Source of the DNA: Thermoplasmatales archaeon
GTDB taxonomy: Archaea; Thermoplasmatota; E2; DHVEG-1
DNA length: 35,363 nt
NCBI GenBank assembly: GCA_020350365.1
Contig: CP070712.1
Coordinates: 274,922-310,284, forward strand
Direction: 5' to 3'
Part shown: positions 1-26,172 of the stretch, piece by piece
Layout: each line of letters starts with the position of its first letter
Numbering within the stretch: the first letter of the stretch is position 1
Notes under the pieces: generated by a model
Databases searched by the model: none
What the model saw: only the letters and a program-made list of their open reading frames with translations
Told to the model about the DNA's origin: nothing
Program-made: the position numbers and the translations under genes

Positions 1-1680
1 CTTGATGGCAATTACCTTACCTTTGCTAATAGGTTCTCCTTCTAATCCTGTGGTTGTTACCTTCTGACCGATTTTAATGACTCCTTCTGGTAGCTCCCAA
101 GGAATTACTATCCTAGCTGTCTTTTTTGTCTTGTCATAATCCCTATCAACAAGAGTAATTGCTAGTCCAGGGCATAACGAAACACATCTATTACATGCTA
201 AACAATCATATTCAAATTGAGGTATTCCCATTATGCTGGAATCCTTAATCTTGATACTTTGTAGAACACAAGCCTCCGTGCATGGATTACAAGGGATTTC
301 CTGGGCACAATGAATCATAGGGTGAACATTATTTTTTGTTTGAGGTTTATGAGGTTTTTTAACAGACCCAGGCTTACTACACAGGATATTTAACATATCA
401 TTCCATTCTGATGGAGTATCTACATCGTAACCCATATCGATGAGAATACTTCTAGCAGTGATGCGTCCTGAAAACATTGCAGCTGAAGCCTCCGCAATTA
501 CATTAGCATCACCGGCAGCATAGGTTTTAAAGCCAAAGTTTTCAGCCTGTTTTTTAAGTTCATCAACAGGAGTGAGTCCTACAGCAATAAGTAGTGTATC
601 TGCCTCAAAAATCGCCTCTGTTCCCTTAATTGGCCTGAACTTGTCATCGATCTCTGTGATTATTACACGTTCAAGATGATCCTTTCCTTCAGCTCTTAAA
701 ACTGTATGAGACGTATAAATCGGAATTCCAAGTCGTTTAATCTTATCTAGGTGAACCTTGTAGCCTCCACATTGTGGTAAAGCTTCAACAATACCCATGA
801 CATCCACACCTGCTTGAAGTGCATGGTAAGCGCCAATTAAACCAACATTTCCTCCTCCAATTACAAACAATTTATCTGTAGGTTTTATAAGATCCCTATT
901 GACCAGAGTTTGAAAAGCCCCTGCCCCATATACCCCTGGAAGATCACAACCCGGGAAAGCAAGTGTTTTTTCTCTTGCTCCTGCAGTTACGAGAAGAATC
1001 TCAGGTTTTACCAAAGTGTACTTTCCATCTTTTACGACACCTACAAGTCCATCAACAAATACTCCTACAACAGAAGAATCCGTCCAAACTTCTACGTTTG
1101 AGTCTTCTTCTACTAGAGATGCAAGATTGTCGCCGATATCCATCCCACGGCTTCCCGCAAAGCAATCTCTTATAGACCCAAAGAAATTATGCGTTTGAAG
1201 CCCTAGTTTCCCACCTAAATCCTGCTTATCATCACAAATAATGCACTTTTGACGCATTTTTCCTAATTCTATTGCAGCTGACATACCTGCAGGTCCACCA
1301 CCAACAATTAAAACAGTTGTTTCGACAGTAGGTACCTTTCCAAATTTTTTTACAGCTTTATCATCTTCTAAAAGACTAGGAAATCCCTTTGCGGATCTTA
1401 CATCCATGCCCTCTTTTATTGGAGTAACACATGATTTTACAGGAACACCATCTGCAATAACTAAGCACTGTGCGCATTGGCCATTAGCACAAAATATCCC
1501 TTGGGGTGAGTTGTCCTTTTCATGATTGCCAAAAATATGTATTCCATTGGCAAACAACGCTGATGAGATCATCTCTCCAGATTTTCCACTGAGTTTCTTA
1601 CCATTAAAAGTGAAATTAACAGAACCAATTGTTAATTCAATAGACAATATCGGATGTTTAGTGATTCTAGCATTATCCAT
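1..1680 (-). CDS. 2Fe-2S / FAD / 4Fe-4S oxidoreductase (partial, 3' end outside window)
   Basis: The reading frame is open for 560 codons from an ATG at 1680 to the window edge, so the C-terminus is missing. An N-terminal [2Fe-2S] domain of the Fer2_4 type has C64, C69, C72 and C84. An FAD-binding GGGPAG follows near residue 128 and a second dinucleotide site (GGGNVG) near residue 275. Two ferredoxin-type clusters lie at C458/C464/C467/C471 and C493/C496/C499/C503. This order resembles the alpha subunits of sarcosine, opine and proline/hydroxyproline dehydrogenases (HcnB/SoxA-like), which pass electrons from an amine or amino-acid oxidising partner. Substrate and partner are not visible here. 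Its start codon overlaps the stop of the upstream gene by one base (TGATG), so the two are probably translationally coupled and act in one redox complex. The family call is sound; the function is inferred. Confidence 0.85.
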   Translation of the reverse strand, partial: MDNARITKHPILSIELTIGSVNFTFNGKKLSGKSGEMISSALFANGIHIFGNHEKDNSPQGIFCANGQCAQCLVIADGVPVKSCVTPIKEGMDVRSAKGFPSLLEDDKAVKKFGKVPTVETTVLIVGGGPAGMSAAIELGKMRQKCIICDDKQDLGGKLGLQTHNFFGSIRDCFAGSRGMDIGDNLASLVEEDSNVEVWTDSSVVGVFVDGLVGVVKDGKYTLVKPEILLVTAGAREKTLAFPGCDLPGVYGAGAFQTLVNRDLIKPTDKLFVIGGGNVGLIGAYHALQAGVDVMGIVEALPQCGGYKVHLDKIKRLGIPIYTSHTVLRAEGKDHLERVIITEIDDKFRPIKGTEAIFEADTLLIAVGLTPVDELKKQAENFGFKTYAAGDANVIAEASAAMFSGRITARSILIDMGYDVDTPSEWNDMLNILCSKPGSVKKPHKPQTKNNVHPMIHCAQEIPCNPCTEACVLQSIKIKDSSIMGIPQFEYDCLACNRCVSLCPGLAITLVDRDYDKTKKTARIVIPWELPEGVIKIGQKVTTTGLEGEPISKGKVIAIK

Positions 1681-4600
1681 CAGATATCGCCTCCCTCAAT
1701 AGAAGAAACAAGTAGTTTATACACATCGGTTATCTTGATATTAACTAAGCGCCATGAGCCCTCTCCTTGACACATAAGCAGATGTGATTCGCAGTAGGGA
1801 GAAGTGCATAAAACCATATCAGCGCCTTTTTCTTCAGCTTTTTTCATAAGATTTAACGCGTTTTTCTTAGAGTCTGCATTCAAGCTTTCAAAACCAGTAT
1901 GCCCACATTTATCATTTATATTAAATACTTTAATACCTGGAATAAGCTTGAGAAGTTTTAATGTTGATTCATAGAACGGATCTTTATCCATCATACATGA
2001 ATGATGAACCGCTATTGTTTTATTTATAGGAGAGTAATCTTTTAAGTCCTTCAGTACATTTAACAATTCATCAACGATTGAGGTTACTTTTCTAAAGTCT
2101 TTTTCCTTAGAAAAAGTATAGAATGATTCAGGTGTTCCAAGAATTAAATTCTTGGGATTTGCTTTTTTAAATGATTTGATATTATTTTCTGCTATCTTAG
2201 AAACAATGTCTTTTATTCCTTCTATTTTTGTTTTCAATAATCCTTTTGAAGGGCAGGATAAGCCTTCAATCGATCCATGTTTAATCTTTGCCTTGTCTAG
2301 GAGTTTAAATATCGCTTGGCGTGTTGGACCTAGATCAAATAGTTTATGTGTTTCTCCTATATATTGCAACATTGGTAGGCATCCTTCAAAGAAGCCAATT
2401 CCCCCAGATTTTACAGATGAAGAGAAATACATATCTGTAGGTTTTTCATCAGGGTTTGCTCCTAGTATTCTTAGAGTTATTACTGCCTCGCCTATTGGAC
2501 ATTCAATCGATTTTGGTAATAAGATTTTGATCTCTTTTAATCCTTTTTTATCAAGAGATTTTGAAAACTTTCTCAGAACAGAGGCTGGATTTATCCCTGT
2601 AGTTACATCTCTATATTGTATCCTATCTGGAGATATACCAATTAATTTCAATAGATTCTGTGCTTTGTTAACTATTATCTGCGGATGCTCTTCCCAGGGC
2701 AGATAATGCGAACCGGTTTTTTCATCTGGACCAATTAGCAATAGCCCTTTACCTGAGCGTGCTAATGCCCTTATTAAGAAGGACGGTGAAGGCTTTCTTG
2801 CAGACATCACCTCAACTATGCCTTCAAAACTTTCGAAAGAATGTGAAGGTGTGCTCCAGTAACTCATTAGGGCCTTAACACCTTTATAAGGTGTTTTTTT
2901 CTCAAGTAATCTAGATAAAATATAATCATCTGACATATATCCCTGAGTTATCGCTCCAGATGGGCATACAGAGATACAAGCACTACACGATGCACATGCA
3001 TCATGGTCTATTTTGGAAAACGGTATTTCATCTTTTTTAAAAACATTATTAACTGCCCTATAAGCACAAACTTCTTCGCATCGTCCACAACTTATACACA
3101 AATCTTTATCAACCTCAGCTGTTAAGCTTTGAAGATTAATCGACTTTGTTGTATTGTCTGTTTTTATCTCAAACTCAGATGGTCCTTTTTTTGATATCCT
3201 CTTTGATAAATCACATGGTACTTTCAGAAGAAAAGTTATATCCTCTACTTTAGCTGCTAACTGTTTATGCTCACAATTTGGAAGACATTTATCACAAAGA
3301 TAACAGGGTCCACAAGTAAAACATCTAGAAGCTTCTTCAACTGCCTCATAATCTAAAAATGATTTTTCTACTTCATCAAATGATTTAGTTCTAAATCTTT
3401 TATCTAATCTTTTAGGTGAATGAATTAATTTATCATATTTTGGAGTCTCAGTCACTATGGGGATTTGTTTTTCTATATCTGTAGTGGTATTTTTTCCTCT
3501 CAAATATTTATTAATACCTTTTGCTGCCTCATGCCCGCGACCGATAGCCTCCACAACGGATGAAGGTCCTGTTTCTACATCACCGGCAGCAAAGATACCT
3601 TTTATTTTTGTGTAACCTTTTTCTTTAGTTTCTATCCTTTCTCTTTTATTGGTAATTTTTACATTTCCAACTGGTCCAACATCTGGTTTTGTTCCAACAG
3701 CAGGTATGATAATATCAGCTTTTAAAACAAATTCACTATCTTTTATAGGAATGGGTCTTTTTCGTCCTGATTTGTCAGGTTCTCCAAGCTTAGCTTTTAG
3801 AAGTTCTAAACCTGTTATCATTCCATTTTTTACTATAATTTTCTTAGGAATCGCTAATGTTACAATGTTCAAACCTTCTTCTTTTGCATCCTCGATTTCT
3901 TCTTTTTCAGCAGGCATTTCCTCTAAACCACGACGGTATGCTAATGTGACCTTTTTTGCCCCAAGTCGAATAGCAGATCTGGCAACATCAAATGCTGTTG
4001 AACCTCCTCCAATAACTACTATTTCACCTTTAGTAATCATTGGTTGATCAATATTTAATTCTTGTAAAAACAATAGGGGATCAATGATTCCATCTGCTTC
4101 TTCCCCTTCACCTTCAATACCTAGAGGTAATGACTTTGGCGCTCCACCAGCAATTAGAACCGCAGAATATCCTTTTTTCAGTAAAGTTGCAGGGTCATCA
4201 ATTTTTTTTCCTGTCTCAATTATAATTCCTAAACCTTTAATCCAATCGATTTCTCGCTTTACTATTCTCTTAGGTAAACGATATGAAGGTATTGCATAAC
4301 GAAGCATACCTCCAGGTTCATCTTGCCTTTCAAAAACCGTAATTGAATATCCAGTTCTTACCAGATCCACAGCTGCTGAAAGCCCTGCTGGCCCTGCTCC
4401 AACTATTGCGATTTTTTCTTTGTAAACCTTTTCACATGGTTCCATAAAAAGAGACCTACGAGCAAGCTCGTAATCTGTTGCATATCGTTTTAGAGCTCTG
4501 ACAGAAACAGAATCTCCTTCTATTCCTTGTTCACAATTATCCTCACAAGGTCTAGTACAAACCCTTCCGCAAATAGCTGGAAATGGATTATTTTGCCTAA

Positions 4601-4814
4601 TAACGTCAACAGCTTCCTCAAATTTTTTGTTTGCAATTAAATTTACATAAGCTTTGACATTAACTCCTGCGGGACACGCATTGCTACATTCAGGGAGACC
4701 TTTTAACTCAATCTTATATTTTTTACCATCAACCTTGAGAACGTTTTCCTTTCCGCCAAATAATGATTCAAAATTTAGATTTAAATCTGGTTTTTTTTCT
4801 GATTTCAGAGACAC
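1680..4814 (-). CDS. GltD/NfnB-like flavoprotein fused to ferredoxin, FlpD-like and CCG (HdrB/D-like) domains
   Basis: This is a 1044-residue multi-domain redox protein. Residues 40-100 hold the Cys-rich Fer4_20 segment typical of glutamate synthase small subunit and NfnB. An FAD site (GAGPAG, 139-144) and an NAD(P)H site (GGGSTA, 269-274) follow, and the GltD-like part ends near residue 440. A Cys cluster at 498-514 and two 4Fe-4S motifs (C573-C583 and C607-C617) come next. Residues 641-745 resemble the FlpD/MvhD delta domain but contain no cysteine. Residues 803-905 and 930-1035 look like the two CCG domains of HdrB/HdrD, with only C812, C854, C940, C970, C1003 and C1008 left. A GTG start is chosen because AGGAG lies 6 bases upstream. 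The likely role is electron transfer from NAD(P)H into a heterodisulfide-reductase-like module; the acceptor is unknown. The flavoprotein and ferredoxin parts are certain, the C-terminal assignments are by motif shape. Confidence 0.8.
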   Translation of the reverse strand: MSLKSEKKPDLNLNFESLFGGKENVLKVDGKKYKIELKGLPECSNACPAGVNVKAYVNLIANKKFEEAVDVIRQNNPFPAICGRVCTRPCEDNCEQGIEGDSVSVRALKRYATDYELARRSLFMEPCEKVYKEKIAIVGAGPAGLSAAVDLVRTGYSITVFERQDEPGGMLRYAIPSYRLPKRIVKREIDWIKGLGIIIETGKKIDDPATLLKKGYSAVLIAGGAPKSLPLGIEGEGEEADGIIDPLLFLQELNIDQPMITKGEIVVIGGGSTAFDVARSAIRLGAKKVTLAYRRGLEEMPAEKEEIEDAKEEGLNIVTLAIPKKIIVKNGMITGLELLKAKLGEPDKSGRKRPIPIKDSEFVLKADIIIPAVGTKPDVGPVGNVKITNKRERIETKEKGYTKIKGIFAAGDVETGPSSVVEAIGRGHEAAKGINKYLRGKNTTTDIEKQIPIVTETPKYDKLIHSPKRLDKRFRTKSFDEVEKSFLDYEAVEEASRCFTCGPCYLCDKCLPNCEHKQLAAKVEDITFLLKVPCDLSKRISKKGPSEFEIKTDNTTKSINLQSLTAEVDKDLCISCGRCEEVCAYRAVNNVFKKDEIPFSKIDHDACASCSACISVCPSGAITQGYMSDDYILSRLLEKKTPYKGVKALMSYWSTPSHSFESFEGIVEVMSARKPSPSFLIRALARSGKGLLLIGPDEKTGSHYLPWEEHPQIIVNKAQNLLKLIGISPDRIQYRDVTTGINPASVLRKFSKSLDKKGLKEIKILLPKSIECPIGEAVITLRILGANPDEKPTDMYFSSSVKSGGIGFFEGCLPMLQYIGETHKLFDLGPTRQAIFKLLDKAKIKHGSIEGLSCPSKGLLKTKIEGIKDIVSKIAENNIKSFKKANPKNLILGTPESFYTFSKEKDFRKVTSIVDELLNVLKDLKDYSPINKTIAVHHSCMMDKDPFYESTLKLLKLIPGIKVFNINDKCGHTGFESLNADSKKNALNLMKKAEEKGADMVLCTSPYCESHLLMCQGEGSWRLVNIKITDVYKLLVSSIEGGDI

Positions 4815-4872: not shown

Positions 4873-5298
4873 CTATTTAATCTGAACATCCTTGATTGAG
4901 TGATGTCTTCGGGCAAGATTGCGGATTATTTCAATATTTCTTCCACCCTTACCTATTATTTTTGATTTATCACTGACATCCACATCAACTTTTACAACGG
5001 TTGAATCATTATCTCCTTCTAATGTAACATTATTAATTTTGTAAGGTTTGAAAAGATTAATTATAAATTTCTCTTTATCTCCATCAAATTCTACAAATTT
5101 TATTGTCTTTTTAAAAAGGGAACGTAGTTTCTCTAAATTTTTTGCCTTAATACCAATTGCTGCACCAAGTTGTCCTTTTTTTACAATAAAAATTATCCTA
5201 TCCTCAATGCTTAAACAATCCAGGATATGTGTTTTAGTTACATTGCTTGCCATATTTATGTACTGCATTTCTTCATTTGAAAGCATTATATCTGCCAT
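4873..5298 (-). CDS. nusA: NusA-like KH-domain transcription factor
   Basis: Archaeal NusA is a short protein of two KH RNA-binding domains, without the S1 and N-terminal parts of bacterial NusA. KH1 carries GAAIGIKAKN and KH2 carries the GxxG loop in IIGKGGRNIE near the C-terminus. The length of 141 residues fits the family. It directly follows rpl30e, the conserved archaeal order rpoH-rpoB-rpoA1-rpoA2-rpl30e-nusA. A TTG at 5304 would also be in frame, but the ATG at 5298 is better placed behind AAAGGTAG (about 8 bases), which lies over the end of rpl30e. It is expected to bind nascent RNA and act with RNA polymerase; its exact role in archaea is less clear than in bacteria. It is apparently the last gene of the RNA polymerase operon here. 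Confidence 0.9.
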   Translation of the reverse strand: MADIMLSNEEMQYINMASNVTKTHILDCLSIEDRIIFIVKKGQLGAAIGIKAKNLEKLRSLFKKTIKFVEFDGDKEKFIINLFKPYKINNVTLEGDNDSTVVKVDVDVSDKSKIIGKGGRNIEIIRNLARRHHSIKDVQIK

Positions 5299-5304
5299 GA
5301 GCAA

Positions 5305-5604
5305 CTACCTTTTTTTAATATGGTTTATTATATTTGATCCGCCGTCATCTAGAACTGTAAAAACAGAAACTGCAAATGTTTTTCCACAAGTATAGCCAAG
5401 GTCAATAGCATTTGAATTAAAGTTATAGACTGGTATATTTTTCTTTTTTGCAAGCTTATCGATCTCCATCTGATATGGAAAATTTTTTGCCATTATAACA
5501 AGCTTTGCAGATCCGTCATTAATTGATGATTTAGTCTCTTTTGTTCCAATCTTTACTTTTCCTTTCTTTACTGTATTTTTCAAAATCTTATCTATATCTA
5601 CCAT
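5305..5604 (-). CDS. rpl30e: Large-subunit ribosomal protein L30e
   Basis: The 99-residue protein matches the L30e/L7Ae/S12e fold family in length and motifs: an N-terminal VKIGTKET helix start, the AKLVIMAKN strand, the IPVYNF strand and a central LGYTCGK segment before the last strand. It belongs to the large ribosomal subunit and, in archaea and eukaryotes, contacts helix-junction RNA. It sits between rpoA2 and nusA, its normal archaeal place. The start ATG follows the rpoA2 stop after three bases, with GAAGGAATAA upstream as ribosome-binding site, so it depends on operon transcription. The stop codon lies just before the nusA start region. Confidence 0.93.
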   Translation of the reverse strand: MVDIDKILKNTVKKGKVKIGTKETKSSINDGSAKLVIMAKNFPYQMEIDKLAKKKNIPVYNFNSNAIDLGYTCGKTFAVSVFTVLDDGGSNIINHIKKR

Positions 5605-5607
5605 TTA

Positions 5608-7041
5608 TTATTCCTTCTTTTTACTTCTCTTCATTACTAGCTCAACTGCACCAGTTCCAAGGTTTACGGGTTGTCCTACGATAATGTTTTCTGCAACACC
5701 TCCTAGTTTATCGGTTTCACCTCTTCTTGCAGCCTGCAATAAATGAGAAACAGTTATTTCAAAGGCAGCACGAGAAAGTACTGATTCCTTTTCTTTACTT
5801 ACACCATGCCTTCCGATGGCTCTAATTGTTCCGTCAGCAGTCATTACATCTGAAACAAGCATTATGTGCCTTAAATCAACATTTAAACCCTGTTCTGATA
5901 ACGTATTATAAGCTTCTTGAATTATCATATTTCTTGCAGCCTCTATTCCAAGGGTTCTTCCAACTGCTTGTATATCATTTGTTGTTGTTCTATATGGGTC
6001 AACACCATCTACTTGCAAGACCTTTTCCAGGTTACTACCTTCACTATAAATTACATATCCCTCATTTGGTTCATTTCTTATGATAATTCGCTTGATACCA
6101 TCTATTCCTTTTACTTTAAGGTCTTTTAATGTTTCATTTACATCTAAAAGTTTTTTATAACTTGGCTCATCAAGTGATATCTTTATACTATCTTTATCAA
6201 CTTTTGCATCTATTCCTCTGATTTTCTGAATAATTTCTCCAACTTCCTTAATTGATATATTTTTACTTTTTAAGGTTTTCATATTTGGTTTAACATAAAT
6301 TACTAGGTTTGTTAGATCTGTTTCAATGTCTGCTATACTATTTAAACGTGTAATTTCTATCTGATTTGCTACTTCTTTTGCAAGATCAGAATTTAATTTG
6401 TATTCATCACGTAAATAAATATTCATCATTGGTGTTGATGGAATTGATCTTGCATCAACAATTTCAATTAATCGTGGTAGTCCCAAGGTAACATTAATTT
6501 CAGCAACTCCTGCGTAGTGAAATGTTCTCATTGTCATCTGGGTACCAGGTTCTCCAATACTTTGGGCTCCTACAATTCCACAGGCTTCAGATGGATCAAC
6601 GGCATTTTTATCATATTCTTTCAGGGCTTTAGAAATGATATCTTTTAATTTTGATTGAAGAGTCTTTTCTGTTGAGACCATAGATATAATATCATCGATT
6701 ATTGCTTTAGGAAAAAATCTGCCATCCAGGATTTTTAAAATCTCTGATCTTATTTTTTTATGTTCAGGAGATTCCTCAATTGGTTTTGGGAGTTTAATTT
6801 CTCTTTTTTCTACTACCTTTTCCTCTTTTTTTTCGGGTTTCTTTGTAGATTTTTTAATAATCTTTTCCTTTTTCCCCGTCTTTTTTGTTTTCTCTTTTAA
6901 AATGGTCTTTTTTTGGGGAGTTTTTTCAGGTGAAATTTTTGTTTTCTTTTCTTTTTTTACAGGTTTTTTTGTAGTGGTATCTTTTAAGATTTCTTTTTTA
7001 GTTTTAGTTTTTACTGGTTTTTTTACTTGTTTTTTAGCCAT
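5608..7041 (-). CDS. rpoA2: DNA-directed RNA polymerase subunit A'' with long basic N-terminal tail
   Basis: This is the C-terminal part of the largest RNA polymerase subunit, split from A' as in other archaea. The core begins near residue 90 and holds the trigger-loop region ([20 protein letters not shown]) and a C-terminal block ([16 protein letters not shown], then [20 protein letters not shown]) typical of A''. In front is an unusual tail of about 90 residues made almost only of Lys, Thr, Glu and Pro in KKP/KKTK-like units. The usual archaeal A'' has no such tail. The start ATG overlaps the rpoA1 stop (TAATG) and has GAGGGG upstream, so the tail is in frame and starts at the coupled position. 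The tail could bind nucleic acid; that is inference. Confidence 0.95.
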
Positions 7042-9710
7042 TAAATCCCCTCTTTAATATCTGTTATTATTCGATTTATGTCAACTGCATTTCCATTAGT
7101 GCTTCTTGCGGGGTCTATTCCATCTTCCCCATAAATAAATTGTATTATCTGACCACCCGAATGTCTAACAGTTCCATCATTTTCAACCTTAACGTCTTCA
7201 AGTGCATTGATAAGTCGTCTCTGCATATAACCAGATCTTGATGTTCGTACTGCTGTATCAACTAAACCTTCTCTTCCACCCATTGAATGGAAGAAATATT
7301 CTGTTGGAGTAAGACCTGTTTTATAACAAGATGCAACAAATCCCTTTGCCCTTGCCCCAAGATCTCCTTTTTTGAAATGTGGTAATGTTCTATATTGATA
7401 TCCTCTATGAATTCTCTCGCCTCTAACAGCCTGTTGTCCTACACAACCTGACATCTGCGAAAGATTAAGCATTGAACCACGAGCACCAGATTTGGCCATA
7501 ATAACTGCACTATTGTTCAGTCCAAGATGTTTGCCTGCTATTTCCCCGGCCATATCTCTTGCTCTACCTGTAACTCTCATTATTTCCATTTCCAATGTTT
7601 CTTCAATGCTTCTTCCAGGAAGGGACTCTAGTTCATTATTTTCATAAGCTTTCACAAGACTTCTAATTTTATTCATAGCTTTTTCAAGACCTTCTTGTAT
7701 CTGCCTTTTTGCTTCTTCAGGGATATCTTCATCATCAATGCTTGTGGTAAAGCCAAATAATGTAATGGAGTTTATTCCCATTCTTGTAACATTATCAATA
7801 AACGACCTACCTGCATCCATTCCATGGTCTCGAATGATTCTATCAAGTATTTTTCCTTTAAAAGCACCTATACTATTTTCATCTACCGTTCCTTGTTTTA
7901 GTATACCCTTTTTAATTATCACATGTGCATCATTAGGGCATTTTGGTGCTGTGCAAACCTCACAGTTGAGACATGTTTTAGCTCTATACTCTAGATTTAG
8001 GTCATCAGGAAGTAGTGTGCTAAAAATGTCCTTTCCACTCATATATCTATTCCCATTCTCCTCTATAATATTTGGTGTTTTTCCTTCATATTTAATTGCT
8101 GACAAAATATGTGATGCATCATCATAAGATATCTTTTTATTTTGATGTGTAAGAAGGAAACAGCCAGATATATGATCATGTATTCCTCCAATAATTGCTC
8201 CTCCAAATCTGGGAGATAAAATATTTTCCTGAACCTTCATTAGTATTTCTGCCTCAGCTTGTGCTTCCTCCCCTTGTAAAAGATGTAAATTCATCTCGTC
8301 TCCATCAAAATCAGCATTATAAGGAGGACAAACACTCAAATTAAATCTAAAGGTTTTGTTTGGGACAACTTTAACACGATGTGCCATCATTGACATACGA
8401 TGAAGAGATGGTTGTCGATTAAATAAAGAAAGATCACCATTCATAAGTTGTCTTTCAATTATCCCACCAATCTCCAATTTTTCCGCTACATCTTCTGCAT
8501 TTTTTTCGGTTATTTTAATTCGTTGTTTCATCCCTTCGGTTTCCCGAATGACATAATTAACTCCTGGTCTATACTGATCTGGATCATCAGACATTTCAAC
8601 CTTTTGCCGAATCAGATTTTTACACCAATCAATATTGTGAGTTGTTACTTTTATAGGAATAGTTAGTTCTCTTGCTATTTGAATAGGTACACCTATTTCA
8701 TTTATACTTAAATTTGGGTCTGGAGAAATTACAGTACGTGCTGAAAAGTTAACACGCTTTCCAGAAAGATTACTTCTAAACCGCCCTTCTTTTCCCTTTA
8801 AACGCTGTGCAAGAGTTTTAAGTGGTCGACCTGACCTATGACGAGCTGGCGGTATTCCCGATGTTTGATTATCTAAATATGTTGTTATATGATATTGTAA
8901 TAACTCCCAAAGATCCTCAACAATAAGTTGTGGTGCACCAGCATCTCTATTTTCTTGTAATCTTTGATTTATACGAATAACATCTACAAGTTTATGTGTA
9001 AGATCATCTTCAGATCTCTCACCAGATTCAAGTGTAACAGAAGGTCTTACTGTAACTGGTGGAACTGGAAGAACTGTTAAAACCATCCACTCTGGTCTTG
9101 CAGATCTTACGTCAATATCTAAAAGTGGAAGATCTTCATCTGGAATTTTTTCAAGCCATTCTCTTACTTCTGAAGGTGTAAGTTTTTTTCCATTTTCTCT
9201 TATTGAGGTTGGTTTGTCTAGTTCTATTTTTCCAACCTCTCTGTCACAATAAGGACATTTTTCTGCCTTTACGGATTCTTTTATTATCTGTTTTAATACA
9301 AAAGTTGGGTCCCGTCCTTCACTTTTGTATTTTTTAAGTTCATCCATATATTCCTGTCTTTGTTTTTCAGTAAGTAATATTTTACCGCATCCTCTACAAG
9401 ATGCACGAAGACTGTCACGAATAGATTTTACTAGGCCAACATGAATTACAGGCATTGCTAAATCAATATGGCCGAAATGACCTGGACATTTGTCTTTTCC
9501 AACTCTTAGTCCACATGTTTTACACCGAAGACCTGGTTCAACAACACCAAGTCTTGGGTCCATAAGTCCCATAGCAATTGGAAATCCATCATCATCATAG
9601 GTGTCTGCAGTTATTACTTTTGTAGCACTCATCTTTCTTATTTCATTTGGTGAAAGAAGTGAAAATGAAATTGCACCTATTTTTTTTGTAATACTTCTTG
9701 CTCTTTCCAT
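7041..9710 (-). CDS. rpoA1: DNA-directed RNA polymerase subunit A'
   Basis: This is the N-terminal two thirds of the largest subunit. The clamp zinc site shows C63, C66, C75 and the CPGHFGHI motif, and a second CxxC pair set follows near residues 105-170. The catalytic Mg-binding motif NADFDGD lies near residue 465. The bridge-helix region near the end ([11 protein letters not shown], then [26 protein letters not shown]) is intact. The length of 889 residues is normal for a separate A'. An AAGGT ribosome-binding site precedes the ATG. It lies 20 bases behind rpoB and overlaps rpoA2 by one base, so B, A' and A'' are made in a coupled series. Nothing suggests loss of function. Confidence 0.98.
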
Positions 9711-9729
9711 AATTTAACCTTCAATTTAT

Positions 9730-12700
9730 TTATACTAATGATTCTAATTTTATTCTTGGTGCTATAACCAAAGACTTTAATTCATCAATTAAAAGTTTGA
9801 ATGCATAGCTCATTTCAATTGGATAGATATCTGCCTTGTCTCCACAAACAGGACAACGCAAAGCACCATGTCTATCATGAATTGCAACATGTCCACAGGT
9901 ATTACATATATATTTCACAGTTAGGTCTGATTCATCAAGAAGTCTATCTTTTATAACCATTGAAGCACCATGACCAATTAGACAGTCTCTCTCCATTTCT
10001 CCAAATCTAAGCCCTCCTTCTCTGGCTCTACCTTCTGTTGGTTGTCTTGTTAAAATCTGAACCGGACCTCTAGAACGAGCATGAATTTTACCTGCCACCA
10101 TATGATGAAGTTTCTGGTAATAAATACATCCAACAAAAATATCTACTTCAAGAGGTTTACCTGTTTCGCCATTGTACAATAATTCTTTACCATTATGCTT
10201 AAATCCATTTTCTACTAAAGCATTTCTTAAAGCTTCCTCAGATTGTCCCCCAAAAGCAGTTCCATCAACAATTCCGCCATTTAGGGCACCAACTTTTCCA
10301 CCTATCATTTCAAGGACGTGACCTACAGTCATTCTACTTGGAATTGCATGAGGATTAATTATTAGGTCAGGAGATATTCCATCCTCATTAAAAAGCATAT
10401 CTTCTTGAGAAACTAAAAGTCCAATGACTCCTTTTTGTCCATGTTTTGATGCAAACTTATCTCCATATTCTGGTATTCTTTCTTCACGAACAGTAATCTT
10501 AACCATTCTTGAACCATTTACTGATTCAGATAGCATTACTTTATCAACAGTTCCTCCTTCACCATGTTGAACAGTAACTGAAGTTTCTCTTCTTTTCTGC
10601 GGAGTTAGAAAATCTGTTGGTTCTTCTAAAAATCTTGGGGGAGAAGTTTTACCTATTAAAACATCTGCACTTTTTACATCACATTCTGGCGAAATAAGCC
10701 CATCTTCACCAAGATTGACATAGGCTTCCTCGCTTCTGACTCCCCTGCAGTCTGGATCTGGCACTTCAAAATGATCTTCTTGTCCACCAGGGTATCTTTT
10801 CTCTTCACTGCTATATGTTCTAAAAAAACTACTTCGACCCATTCCCCGTTCTACGCTAGCTTTGTTCATCACTAGTGCATCTTCCATATTGTATCCTCTA
10901 TAAGATGCAACTGCAACAACTAGATTCTGACCTGCTGGTCTTTCTGCAAATTTAATATATTTTACCGGATGAGTTTGAACAACTGGTGCTTGAGGATAAT
11001 GAAGTAAATGCCCTCTGGTATCAGGTCGTATTCGATAGTTTGCTGCTCCAAAACCCAACGATTGTTTACCCATTCCAGCACCCATGGTAATTCTAGGGGA
11101 AGAATTATGTTCAGGATACGGAACTAGAGATGCACCTATTCCTAGTATGCACATTGGGTCCATTTCCATGTGTGTATAATCTGATGTAATATCTTCTTCT
11201 TTTAATGCAATTAATGTGTTTTCTTCTTCTTCAGCATCAATATATTCTACAATACCTTCATTAATTAGATCTACCCATCTCTTTCTGCCTGTTAAAAGAT
11301 CGCTAACATATTTCTTAGTCAACAATAGTTTACCATTTTCAACAATTACTAATGGTCTTCTTAGTCTACCACAATCACAATTTACAATTAAGTCATTTGC
11401 TTCTTCATAATAAGCAACATTTACCTCATTATTTAGAAGTCCTTTTCTTCGTCTCTCTCTTAGTTTTTGAGCTAGTTCTTTACCGTTTGGATGCATCCCA
11501 ATAAGGTCTCCGTTAAGATATACTCTTGCCCCAGTTGATTTCTTTGTTATTTCTCTTATTCCTAAATCCTTTAGTATATTTTCAACTTCTTTTTCTGAAA
11601 AACCTTCAGATATTTCCACAGTTAGTGCAAGATTTTTAACTAGACCGCAGTTCGGGCCTTCGGGAGTTTCATTGGGACAAAGCCTACCCCATTGTGTAGA
11701 ATGTAAGTCTCGGGCCTCAAAATGAGGTTGTGATCTGGTTAATGGTGATGTTACTCTTCTTAAATGACTGAGGACTGCTAAATTACTTGTTCTATCAAGT
11801 AGTTGTGATATTCCTGCTCTTCCACCTACCCAATTTCCTGTGGCTAAGGCATGATGGATTCGTTGACTTAAAACGTCAGACCTAAGTGATGAACTAATTT
11901 TTATTTCTTTTCCTTTTGCATGAATTCTTTCTATTTGATATTTAAGGTCCTTGCAAAGGGCTGTAAAAGCAACACGAAAAAGATCCTCCATGAGGTCTCC
12001 TGCAAGTTTCAATCGTTTATTTGCGTAATGATCCTTATCATCTTCTTCCCTTTTTCCGAGAGCAAGCTCTAACACAGCCATTCCCATACGTGCCATAAAA
12101 ATTGCTTTAGTAAGTCTATCAACAGATTCATTACCAAGGTGAGGTAAGAGATTTTTATCCATCAAGGTCTCGACTCTTTTAACCCGATACTCTTTTGCTT
12201 GGCCACCAGCAAACTTTTTTCCAAGATATGCAACAGCCTCTTCCTTTGTTGTAATTCCGTACTCATTAGCGCATTCTTCAATATTTGCAAGAACATAAGG
12301 TTCCATCTTTGGATCTACACTTATCACATCAACAATTTCTTCATCATCTTCCATTCCAAGCGCTCTTAGAAGTATCATTAAAGGTATCTGACCATATGTG
12401 GTTGGAAGAGAAACCATGAGCATACCATCATTTTTCTTTTCAACGACGGTTAAAGCTCGATACCCTTCCTTTTGAGAAAATACTTTGGCAACCTCAATAT
12501 CTCTACCATACCTGCTTGATCTTTCTACAAGAACTCTATTTGGAGCAAGATCTTCAACTGTAATAAGAACTCTCTCAGTACCATTACTGATGAAATACCC
12601 ACCTGGATCTAAAAAATCTTCCTGCATTTTCTGGAGCTCTTGTTTTGTTTCCTCATCTGAGAGTTCATGACCTTTTTTTTCTTCAATACTATGTCTTGCT

Positions 12701-13092
12701 AGATTACAAGCTCTTGATTTAATCATTATCGGAAGCTCACCGATTCTTACTTCCTCAGGGTCATATTCAACATCATCTTTTACAGGTATAAATTCTAAAG
12801 ATATTGGAGCCTCATAGGTTAAATCTCTTAAACGCGCTTCCATCGGTGTTAACCTTCTAACTGTTCCATCTGCTTCTTTTACTTCTGGTTTACCAACTGT
12901 TATTTTACCAAATTTGATTTTATAATTTTCAATTTCTGGGTAAATATAGCCTCTTTCCATTTCTTCTTCTTGGCCAATTATTGTACTGTCAACAATGCTT
13001 TGTAACCTTCGTTCTAGAAAATCATTATATGAAGCAATCTGGTGGTTAACAATGCTACGCTCTTTATAAAAAGAATCGATAAGTTCTCTCAT
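9730..13092 (-). CDS. rpoB: DNA-directed RNA polymerase subunit B (undivided)
   Basis: The second largest polymerase subunit is encoded as one 1120-residue chain. Many methanogens and haloarchaea split it into B'' and B'; Thermoplasmata and some others do not. The N-terminal protrusion and lobe, the [15 protein letters not shown] segment in the fork region, the [13 protein letters not shown] active-centre lysine region, and the C-terminal zinc ribbon (CNTCGH...CPVCGD, about residues 1063-1085) are all present, followed by the clamp peptide [11 protein letters not shown]. The ATG has AAAGGTG five bases upstream, and the rpoH stop is 11 bases before it. It forms the catalytic centre together with A'. 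Confidence 0.98.
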
Positions 13093-23188: not shown

Positions 23189-24226
23189 ATGAAACTAATA
23201 GAGGTTTATAGAAGAAACCCAATATCATTTTCTTTATACATACTCCTAATCATAATAGTTGTAATAATTGCTGGACTTGTATTTGCTCCATCTGTGTTTT
23301 ATGATCAATGGATTTGGAAATATTATTGGGGTCCTATTGTAGCAGATGCTTCTGGTAGTGTTGCTTATCATAATGGAGTTGAAGCTAGAGAAGGTTATAC
23401 AATAATATCCGAGATAACTTATGGAATAATCCTGGTTTGTGCTTTATATGCTATCTATAAACTTTTGAAAAAACTCAATATTACAGTTGATTGGAAATTT
23501 GCTCTAGCATTAATGCCTTATTATTTATTTGGACCTATTAGTAGGGTTCTTGAAGATTCAGATTATTTTCATGAACCTGTTGAATATTGGTTTATTTCGC
23601 CATTAATATATCTTCAAATTGCATTTTATGCAATATTTTTCTTATTACTTGGTTATTATCTTGAAAGGAAATTTAAAAATAAAATTTTTTCAGTAAATAT
23701 TATTTTATTTTTAGGAGGTTTAATTTTCTTTATTCCATCAATATATTTGATTTCAATTTGGATATTGGGTGATAGATGGGGATATACTACTGGTGTAAGA
23801 TTTGATGTTTTTTTAATTGTTTTAGGTTTAGTATTTTTAATTGTTGGCCTTGTTTTTCTGGTATCATATATCTTCAAAAATAACAAAAAAATCTCTGTTT
23901 ATAAAAATCCTCTTAATTTAGCAATGCTCTCAGGCCACCTAATAGACGGAATTACTAGCTATATAAGCATAAAAGATCCTTTTTCAATGGGTTTATCATA
24001 TGCTGAGAAACATCCAGCATCAAATGTTTTATTAAATATTTGGGGTCCATTGTTTCCTATAGTAAAATTTTTACTGATAATATTTGTTATTTATGTTTTT
24101 GATATAATGTTTAAAGATGAATTAAAAGATCATATTACTCTTGTTAATCTTCTAAAAATCGGTATCCTCATTCTTGGTTTTTCACCAGGTTTACGTGATC
24201 TTTTAAGAGTTACAATGGGTGTATAA
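23189..24226 (+). CDS. DUF63 family membrane protein
   Basis: This 345-residue integral membrane protein has about eight to nine hydrophobic segments. Family marks of the archaeal DUF63 proteins are seen: WKYYWGPIVAD near the start, EGYTIISEITYGI, the FGPISRVLEDSDYF segment, GHLIDGITSYISI, EKHPASNVL, and the ending LGFSPGLRDLLRVTMGV. Function is unknown. The frame is open from 23111, but the promoter lies inside that stretch, and ATG 23177 or, better, ATG 23189 fits the TATA box spacing. No ribosome-binding site is seen, in line with a near-leaderless mRNA. It is followed closely by lipA (stop at 24226, next ATG at 24231), so lipA probably uses the same transcript. Confidence 0.8.
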   Translation: MKLIEVYRRNPISFSLYILLIIIVVIIAGLVFAPSVFYDQWIWKYYWGPIVADASGSVAYHNGVEAREGYTIISEITYGIILVCALYAIYKLLKKLNITVDWKFALALMPYYLFGPISRVLEDSDYFHEPVEYWFISPLIYLQIAFYAIFFLLLGYYLERKFKNKIFSVNIILFLGGLIFFIPSIYLISIWILGDRWGYTTGVRFDVFLIVLGLVFLIVGLVFLVSYIFKNNKKISVYKNPLNLAMLSGHLIDGITSYISIKDPFSMGLSYAEKHPASNVLLNIWGPLFPIVKFLLIIFVIYVFDIMFKDELKDHITLVNLLKIGILILGFSPGLRDLLRVTMGV

Positions 24227-24230
24227 TCAT

Positions 24231-25076
24231 ATGAGACGTCATCCAGATTGGTTAAAAGTCAAAATTGGGGGTGGGGAGAATTATGTTAGGATGAAATCTC
24301 TTTTAAGAGATGCTAAGCTTCATACAATTTGTCAAGAAGCAAAGTGTCCTAATATTGCAGAATGTTTTGGTACTGGAACTGCTGTATTTTTAATTTTAGG
24401 AGATGTTTGTACTAGAAATTGTAGATATTGTTATGTAAAACATGGGGTGCCTTCAAAATTAAATATTAATGAACCAAAAGATGTTGCATTGAGTGTTGAT
24501 AAATTAGATCTTAAATATGTTGTAATCACATCTGTTACTAGAGATGATCTAAAAGATGGTGGAGCAAATGTTTTTAATAATACTATTAAGGAGATTAAAA
24601 AAATCAATAAAAACTGTTATGTAGAAGTATTGATACCAGATTTTAATGGTAGAATAGAATCTTTAAAAAAAATTATTATCGCAAAGCCAGATGTTATCAA
24701 TCACAATATTGAGGTTGTAAAAGATTTATTTAAAGAAATGCGACCTCAAGGTAATTATGATATCAGTTTAAAAATTTTAAAAGAAATCAAAAAAATAAAA
24801 AATGATGTAAAAACAAAATCTGGTTTTATGATAGGTCTTGGTGAAACCGAAAGTCAAATCTTGAATACGATGAAAGATTTAAGAAATGCAAATGTTGATT
24901 TTTTAACAATTGGTCAATACTTACAACCTTCAAGAAATCATGCACAAATTAGAAAATATTATACTCCAGATGAATTTGAGCAATTTAAGAAAATTGCTCT
25001 TGATATGGGTTTTGCACATGTTGAATCCGGACCACTTGTTAGAAGTTCTTATCATGCAGAAAAAGTAATTTCTTAA
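24231..25076 (+). CDS. lipA: Lipoyl synthase (radical SAM)
   Basis: LipA inserts two sulfur atoms into a protein-bound octanoyl chain to make the lipoyl cofactor. Both iron-sulfur sites are complete: the auxiliary cluster at C34, C39 and C45 (CQEAKCPNIAEC) with the RSSY serine motif near residue 272, and the radical SAM CxxxCxxC at C60, C64 and C67. TSVTRDDLKDGG and ETLG-like GLGETESQ are also present. At 281 residues it is full length. An in-frame GTG at 24219 overlaps the DUF63 gene, but the ATG at 24231 has GGTGT about nine bases before it. The two following genes encode a split lipoate ligase, so this is a lipoylation cluster. Confidence 0.95.
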   Translation: MRRHPDWLKVKIGGGENYVRMKSLLRDAKLHTICQEAKCPNIAECFGTGTAVFLILGDVCTRNCRYCYVKHGVPSKLNINEPKDVALSVDKLDLKYVVITSVTRDDLKDGGANVFNNTIKEIKKINKNCYVEVLIPDFNGRIESLKKIIIAKPDVINHNIEVVKDLFKEMRPQGNYDISLKILKEIKKIKNDVKTKSGFMIGLGETESQILNTMKDLRNANVDFLTIGQYLQPSRNHAQIRKYYTPDEFEQFKKIALDMGFAHVESGPLVRSSYHAEKVIS

Positions 25077-25095
25077 AACCATAAAAAAGAAGAAA

Positions 25096-25104
25096 TTTAT
25101 AAAT
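25096..25104 (+). promoter_or_regulatory. TATA box ahead of lplB
   Basis: TTTATAAAT is centred at 25100, 27 bases before the ATG at 25127. No ribosome-binding site is present, which fits a leaderless transcript and favours that ATG over the earlier one at 25103. Confidence 0.45.
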
Positions 25105-25126
25105 GATAAATAAATGCATTATTATA

Positions 25127-25411
25127 ATGCAATCGCAGTCTACTTATAAAGTTCCAAATGGGAAACTTCTAAAAATATTTTTAAAATATAATGAAAATGA
25201 GAACTTAATTGATGATTTAAAAATTACAGGTGATTTTTTTGCTTATCCTGAAGAAGCAATAGAATTAATCGAACACAAACTTAAAAATGCTTTTTTAAAA
25301 AAAGAAATTTTAATTGAAAAAATTTACTCAATCATTGAAAAAAATCATATTGAATTTATTGGTTTAGATGCAGAGAGTTTGACAAAAGGAATATTGATGT
25401 GTTTGAAATGA
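25127..25411 (+). CDS. lplB: Lipoate-protein ligase, C-terminal subunit
   Basis: The 94-residue protein equals the C-terminal domain of bacterial lipoate ligase, which in Thermoplasma and several other archaea is a separate subunit needed for the adenylation step. Motifs: YKVPNGKLLKIFLKY at the start, LKITGDFFAYPEEAIELIEHKL in the middle and IEFIGLDAESL near the end. Starting at ATG 25103 would add eight residues; the TATA spacing favours 25127. Its TGA overlaps the lplA ATG (ATGA), so the two subunits are coupled in translation and expected in equal amounts. Confidence 0.88.
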   Translation: MQSQSTYKVPNGKLLKIFLKYNENENLIDDLKITGDFFAYPEEAIELIEHKLKNAFLKKEILIEKIYSIIEKNHIEFIGLDAESLTKGILMCLK

Positions 25412-26172
25412 AAGAACAATGGAGATTATTGATTACTGAAAATAATTCAGCTTACACCAACATGGCAATGGATAGAGCTGAACTTGTTAGTGTTAGTGAG
25501 GGTAAAGCTCCCCCTACTGTTAGATTTTTTACATGGAAGCCCGCTGCAATATCAATTGGATATTTTCAAAGTTTAAATGAAGAGGTCGATCTTGCTGCCT
25601 GTAAAAACCTTGGTGTTGACTATGTTAGAAGAATTACCGGAGGTGGGGCTGTGTATCATGATAAAGAACTTACTTATAGCATTGTAATCCCCGAATCTCA
25701 TGGTCAAATTCCAAAAAATATTATGCAGAGCTATGGTAGAATTTGTAGAGCAATAATAAAGGGTTTAAATCAACTTGATATCCAAAGTAAGTATGTGCCA
25801 ATTAATGATATAATTGCTAATGGAAAAAAAATCTCAGGTAATGCGCAGACAAGAAAATTAAAAACAGTTCTACAGCATGGTACTATTCTATTGGATGTTG
25901 ATGTTGAGGAAATGTTTTCTCTTTTAATTGTGCCAAATGAAAAGATAAGAGATAAGATGATTTCTGATGTAAAACAAAGAGTTACATCTGTAAAACATAT
26001 TTTGGGTAAAGACATTGGTTTTAAGAATATTGCTGATGCAATGAAGATTGGTTTTGAAGAGGAGTTTAATATTGAACTTAATGAAGGTACTTTTACAGAA
26101 GAGGAAATTGAACTTACTAATAAATTTGAAAGAGAATTTTTTTCGACAAAGGAATGGAACCATAAAAGATAA
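25408..26172 (+). CDS. lplA: Lipoate-protein ligase, catalytic subunit
   Basis: LplA activates lipoate (or octanoate) with ATP and attaches it to a lysine of 2-oxoacid dehydrogenase E2 or glycine cleavage H protein. The lipoate-binding motif RRITGGGAVYHD is at residues 74-85 and the conserved lysine lies in GKKISGNAQ near residue 135. The protein (254 residues) lacks the C-terminal domain of bacterial LplA, which is supplied by lplB just upstream. A GTG at 25399 is in frame, but the ATG at 25408 with the 4-base overlap is the normal arrangement. Together with lipA it would cover both salvage and new synthesis; no LipB-type octanoyltransferase is seen here. Confidence 0.94.
   Translation: MKEQWRLLITENNSAYTNMAMDRAELVSVSEGKAPPTVRFFTWKPAAISIGYFQSLNEEVDLAACKNLGVDYVRRITGGGAVYHDKELTYSIVIPESHGQIPKNIMQSYGRICRAIIKGLNQLDIQSKYVPINDIIANGKKISGNAQTRKLKTVLQHGTILLDVDVEEMFSLLIVPNEKIRDKMISDVKQRVTSVKHILGKDIGFKNIADAMKIGFEEEFNIELNEGTFTEEEIELTNKFEREFFSTKEWNHKR

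Follow-up and report, generated by a model that had tools for sequence, protein, structure and literature searches.

The window, a stretch of 35,363 nucleotides from a Thermoplasmatales archaeon (assembly GCA_020350365.1, contig CP070712.1), carries on the reverse strand at positions 1680..4814 a gene for a fused electron-transfer polypeptide, supported by its open reading frame, domain matches and homologues. The frame is uninterrupted, starts with GTG and encodes 1044 amino acids, in which a GltD-type FAD/NADP module, a six-cysteine motif, a ferredoxin domain with two [4Fe-4S] clusters, an FlpD/MvhD domain and two CCG domains follow one another. Pfam, profile and fold matches confirmed the joining of these parts in one polypeptide that a preliminary description, made from the sequence alone, had put forward. 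In the open-access literature that we found, neither a single chain with GltD, MvhD and HdrB parts nor a link between such an Hdr/GltD chain and PDH1-type enzymes is described. Next to the fused gene, on the same strand at 1..1680, lies a partner gene of the PDH1/SoxA alpha type, cut at the window edge by a run of Ns. A structure model of the full-length fused protein was weak (pLDDT 65.6, pTM 0.51) and was dropped as a guide to the arrangement of the modules. Upstream of the fused gene, window positions 4873-13092 hold a NusA-type KH protein and RNA-polymerase genes, a gene order that recurs in the family members G034, G028, G027 and G016.

Residues 41 to ~517 are spanned by GltD/StnC-like FAD-NAD(P) protein matches in Pfam and NCBIfam. 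The N-terminal two-cluster domain (Fer4_20, residues 41-118; 4461..4694, reverse strand), recognized by Pfam and by alignment to 8oh5_C, 9bov, 9n5u and NfnB, contains C43, C47, C82, C86, C90 and C94. It is followed by the FAD and NADP(H) module (Pfam Pyr_redox_2, residues 134-427; 3534..4415, reverse strand), with the nucleotide motifs GAGPAG at 139 and GGGSTA at 269, then YRR. The latter, an NADP-type motif conserved across the window clade, together with the GltD-type domains bears out the earlier proposal of an NAD(P)H-linked module. The six-cysteine motif, C498-x2-C-x2-C-x2-C-x2-C-x3-C514 (3273..3323, reverse strand), is invariant in the relatives spanning it; the six N-terminal and eight ferredoxin cysteines are likewise kept in relatives that span them, except in G116, whose frame begins inside the first domain and which is missing the first two N-terminal cysteines. 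The best solved matches of the GltD part are 9bov, NfnA (9n5u) and StnC (8oh5_C), all of which, like the fused protein, place Fe-S domains after a GltD-FAD-NADPH module, and the StnC match extends over residues 41-628. K109, invariant in relatives of the fused protein, aligns with K170 of StnC, which serves the FAD-adjacent cluster where NfnB has Glu, and the FAD concerned is non-bifurcating in StnC (PMC10482914). All the marks of a GltD/StnC-type module, namely Fer4_20, Pyr_redox, the NADP motif and a Lys at the FAD-proximal cluster, are thus found here. The arginine used in the debate on bifurcation does not discriminate, because StnC and NfnB alike possess it. No NfnS- or StnAB-like bifurcating partner gene adjoins the fused gene in the genomes read. 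StnC retains an inactive FdhF domain that is needed for its assembly (PMC10482914), a precedent for the survival of a catalytically inactive domain in a scaffold role; the tail of StnC is FdhF-like, whereas that of the fused protein is MvhD-HdrB-like.

The ferredoxin-type domain with two [4Fe-4S] clusters (Pfam Fer4_21) occupies residues 566-623 (2946..3119, reverse strand). Because an HdrA2 model matches residues 557-756 (7e-24), this domain and the FlpD domain behind it form a unit that resembles the C-terminal end seen in HdrA2-type proteins. The FlpD/MvhD-like domain itself (residues 645-745; 2580..2882, reverse strand) was delimited by Pfam, MvhD profile matches and alignment. The preliminary description had made its reading depend on profile matches to FlpD, and these were obtained: Pfam FlpD (PF02662) scores 26.6 bits at residues 666-739 against a cut-off of 22.3, and a profile of the C-terminal part (620-1044) finds the MvhD chains 7bkb_F (5e-7) and 5odc_D (8e-7). 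None of the four [2Fe-2S] cysteines is present in the window protein, S651, S671, P696 and S702 standing in their positions, while W653, H703 and R731 are invariant wherever covered and Y704 is nearly so. The cysteine-free stretch had been given as 155 residues at 618-771; the absence of cysteine holds, and the run counts 154 residues. With 30 cysteines placed at random, such a run arises by chance with P ~0.23, and its significance by itself was rejected; it is significant because of the FlpD homology and the conservation in relatives, not because of its length.

The fused gene occurs in at least 19 other Thermoplasmatota genomes; in two of these the copy is fragmentary or split. In four members of the window's family the gene is full-length, with 60-67% identity, and in G016 it is split between contigs; more distant copies are found in G084, G095, G103, G116, G088 (pieces), G321, G356, G391-G393 and G395-G398. 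The distribution is patchy, since only 6 of the 45 genomes of the window's GTDB family carry the gene. One GTDB scan, whose patterns find close relatives only, returned Thermoplasmatota-type MAGs only and one weak Bacillota stretch. In a rooted tree of the GltD part, a clade without FlpD cysteines that includes the window (clade A) is supported at 100/100. G088, which keeps two of these cysteines, at positions 671 and 696, is sister to clade A (95/89), and G116, without any, is sister to G398, which has four (99/94). All four are kept in G321, G356, G391-G393 and G395-G398. The rooted tree thus shows the FlpD cysteines to be an ancestral feature, with at least two independent losses. The series of four, two and no cysteines would offer a living case of a redox domain becoming structural.

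Conservation of the cysteine losses in other Thermoplasmatota, which the preliminary description had asked about, was observed for clade A as a whole. The same description had held that homologues with the full cysteine set would mark this copy as decayed. One clade does keep the FlpD cysteines; the whole window clade lacks them, so their absence reflects the evolution of a lineage and not the decay of a single copy. The idea that the fused gene is decaying could draw on the cysteine losses and on the weak conservation of the first CCG domain in distant relatives, and we regard it as extremely improbable, in view of the intact frame in many genomes, the conserved operon and the clade-wide pattern of loss. 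Within the window's family, identity to the window copy is 60-73% in FlpD as against 24-56% in the linker 441-490. In the close pair G321/G397, both of them copies with four FlpD cysteines (no close pair was found inside clade A), dN/dS lies well under 1, at 0.01-0.20 for every domain, indicating purifying selection. The constraint on FlpD and the low dN/dS of this pair argue against gene decay. For the window clade, these observations support the earlier suggestion of an FlpD domain that has no cluster and acts as a spacer or scaffold.

The C-terminal CCG tandem consists of a CCG-like domain 1 (residues 801-925; 2040..2414, reverse strand), in which only C812 and C854 are kept, and a CCG domain 2 (residues 930-1035; 1710..2027, reverse strand), which keeps H937, C940, C970, C1008 and H1011. 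As with FlpD, profile matches had been proposed as the deciding evidence, and Pfam, the HdrB profile and the predicted fold agree: Pfam CCG (PF02754) scores 33.1 bits at residues 934-1012 (cut-off 20.6), hhalign with the HdrB profile covers both domains (97.7%, E 1.7e-12), and an AlphaFold model of residues 620-1044 (pLDDT 86.7, pTM 0.87) finds LutA (TM 0.69) and HdrB (0.53-0.62, both by target length) as its best folds in Foldseek. A racemase function, suggested by Foldseek matches ranked under HdrB, was rejected on account of low TM scores and the lack of paired catalytic cysteines. Of the five canonical cysteine ligands, two remain in domain 1 and three in domain 2 (cysteines 1, 3 and 5, corresponding to C940, C970 and C1008, with 2 and 4 lost), in agreement with the altered CCG site that had been claimed. 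The six cysteines that had been listed for the tandem are all present; they are not the only ones, since domain 2 also contains C1015, which is not conserved. HdrB, LutA and EtfD share the fold and the tandem arrangement, and EtfD, FadF and DgcB provide known examples of CCG sites whose cysteines are changed or absent (PMC13083937); domain D1 of EtfD loses CCG position 3, whereas domain 2 of the fused protein loses positions 2 and 4. Proteins of ~940 residues in other Thermoplasmatota (L061-L071) carry full HxxC...CCG...CxxCxxH motifs and are possibly a relative of the source of the CCG tandem.

All 16 sequences from the two clades, a count that sets G095 aside, share H937, C940, C970, S1005, C1008 and H1011 without variation, and so does G088. 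The domain 2 cysteine ligands are missing together in G095, G116 and G398. C854 and C1003 are confined to clade A, where the FlpD cluster was lost. This joint retention and joint loss, the confinement of C854 and C1003, and the altered clusters with a His ligand in CCG sites of EtfD (PMC13083937) would suit a tail that is functional and more than a scaffold, in which domain 2, together with C854 and C1003, builds a new metal site with an active or relay role, either a Cys/His-ligated Fe-S cluster or zinc. We consider this possible but rather unlikely: the gene is still kept in G095, G116 and G398, where the set is lost, and both histidines also occur in full five-cysteine CCG proteins of the same phylum and are hence not new. 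For the latter reason the change in domain 2 lies in the loss of cysteines 2 and 4 and not in a gain of histidine, and H1011 was dropped as a new ligand. Domain 2 would represent a new ligand set. Domain 1 is poorly conserved in distant relatives. In G116 (L075 7377-10151) and G095 (L034 8398-11322), the FlpD and domain 2 ligand sets are both lost and the operon is kept.

The Hdr-derived portion of the fused protein comprises residues 557-1035 only. HdrA models match it at 557-756 (HdrA2) or 553-634 only, the thioredoxin-reductase-like bifurcating FAD domain of HdrA is absent, and the sole flavin domain is of the GltD type. The HdrB motif, two copies of CX31-39CCX35-36CX2C (PMC5296606), is not found in the fused protein. 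No HdrC lies beside the fused gene, its neighbours in 12 relatives being alpha, beta or unrelated genes. The premise that the Hdr/Mvh parts occur as separate subunits was too strong as stated, because HdrA-MvhD fusions (HdrA2; PMC5296606) and GltD-inserted HdrA (type III; PMC12054007) are known. The fused protein matches the ferredoxin-MvhD end of HdrA2, a type Ia HdrA-MvhD fusion, and combines GltD with Hdr parts as type III HdrA does (PMC12054007), but differs from both in having no HdrA flavin domain and in carrying the HdrB part at its C terminus, and from HdrA2 in the loss of the MvhD cysteines in its clade. A rewired heterodisulfide reductase, in which NAD(P)H electrons would reach the CCG tail and reduce a disulfide or thiol carrier, would agree with the ferredoxin-MvhD-HdrB order, as in HdrA2/HdrB, with the HdrB/LutA fold of the tandem, and with C1008, which aligns with the last, bridging cysteine of the HdrB CXXC. 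Such an enzyme nevertheless appears quite improbable, as the HdrA flavin domain and the HdrC partner are lacking, the clade is without FlpD cysteines, the CCG motifs retain two and three ligands out of five, and G095 and G116 have lost the domain 2 set yet keep the operon. In addition, the same genome already has complete Hdr operons, with two normal MvhD genes retaining all five cysteines and three HdrB genes whose motifs are intact. Because of these normal genes, the fused protein is a specialized paralogue in a cell that has other Hdr as well. The earlier assignment to a relative of heterodisulfide reductase was therefore not upheld for the enzyme as such, given also its PDH1-like partners.

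These partners are best seen in the relatives, where alpha and then beta follow the fused gene in all 12 that could be read far enough (G034, G005, G028, G027, G016, G084, G095, G103, G321, G356, G116 and G088). The alpha gene encodes a Fer2_4 [2Fe-2S] domain, an FAD/NAD fold and two [4Fe-4S] clusters; in relatives it spans ~694 residues and ends in a BFD [2Fe-2S] domain, and the adjacent beta gene encodes a DAO-family protein of ~392 residues. The pairing typical of PDH1, a DAO-type beta with a Fer2_4/Pyr_redox alpha, is complete in relatives, and the window shows alpha only: a run of ~100 Ns just outside its left edge (L028 12822-12922) interrupts alpha and the operon, which is why beta is not seen in the window genome. 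The best solved matches are 1y56_A for alpha and 1y56_B for beta (2e-50), from the PDH1 complex of P. horikoshii. That complex and the opine dehydrogenase/sarcosine oxidase family have homologous alpha and beta subunits; the PDH1 alpha has 493 residues versus ~694 here, where two [4Fe-4S] clusters and the BFD domain are added. To our knowledge, PDH1 has no counterpart of the 1044-residue NADP(H)/Fe-S subunit. The alpha-beta pair is also found in genomes without the fused gene, in two of which it adjoins a divergent P5C-dehydrogenase-like gene (L121 3543-7386; G341 contig 3). No P5C dehydrogenase was matched in any of the 13 fused-gene genomes searched, and proline was for that reason dropped as a certain substrate.

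On the basis of the domain content, the homology and the conserved operon, we favor the reading, which we hold to be reasonably probable, that the fused protein handles electrons on the NADP(H) side of an alpha-beta amine or imino-acid dehydrogenase, as a subunit with an Hdr-derived and largely structural tail. An enzyme of the PDH1/sarcosine-oxidase type would thereby have a third subunit, which faces NADP(H). An amine or imino acid would yield electrons to the DAO-type FAD of beta; alpha, through its [2Fe-2S] cluster, flavin, two [4Fe-4S] clusters and BFD [2Fe-2S] cluster, would hand them to the fused subunit. There, after the two-cluster ferredoxin domain, they could pass the six-cysteine motif and then both N-terminal clusters before reaching the FAD, a StnC-like and presumably non-bifurcating flavin that would exchange hydride with NADP(H). 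The oxidation of amines with NADP+ is energetically uphill unless it is otherwise driven. The energetics instead favor imine reduction driven by NADPH, and the enzyme could accordingly run in reverse, the alpha-beta pair serving as an electron sink. The NADP-type motif of the GltD part and the P5C dehydrogenase result would suit this reversed operation, which we nonetheless judge unlikely, because the characterized relatives, PDH1 and opine dehydrogenase, are dehydrogenases (PMC4575208).

Under the favored assignment to an amine or imino-acid dehydrogenase, the C-terminal third would derive from the ferredoxin-MvhD end of an HdrA2-type protein and from an HdrB-like tandem. In the window clade, the MvhD part, now without its [2Fe-2S] cluster, may act as a scaffold or docking surface; the noncubane, disulfide-cleaving site of the CCG tandem would have been lost, and the altered ligand set of domain 2 may bind a cluster that relays electrons or a metal with a structural role. 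Most metal-binding cysteines are gone from the parts borrowed from Hdr, yet these parts have been retained in evolution, probably as scaffold. We propose more tentatively, as a history that is plausible but somewhat doubtful, that an NADPH-linked amine dehydrogenase acquired an Hdr-derived redox tail, which was then remodeled stepwise, with at least two losses of the FlpD [2Fe-2S] cluster, a three-cysteine site in CCG domain 2, flanked by His and of a type undescribed for CCG domains, and the new C854 and C1003. The assignment joins PDH1-type amino-acid dehydrogenases with Hdr/GltD electron-transfer modules, which are not paired in the literature searched, and, if true, would let uncultured sediment Thermoplasmatota connect the oxidation of amines to NADP(H). 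Elsewhere in the window, at positions 24219-26172, a lipoyl synthase-like radical SAM protein is encoded near a lipoate ligase.
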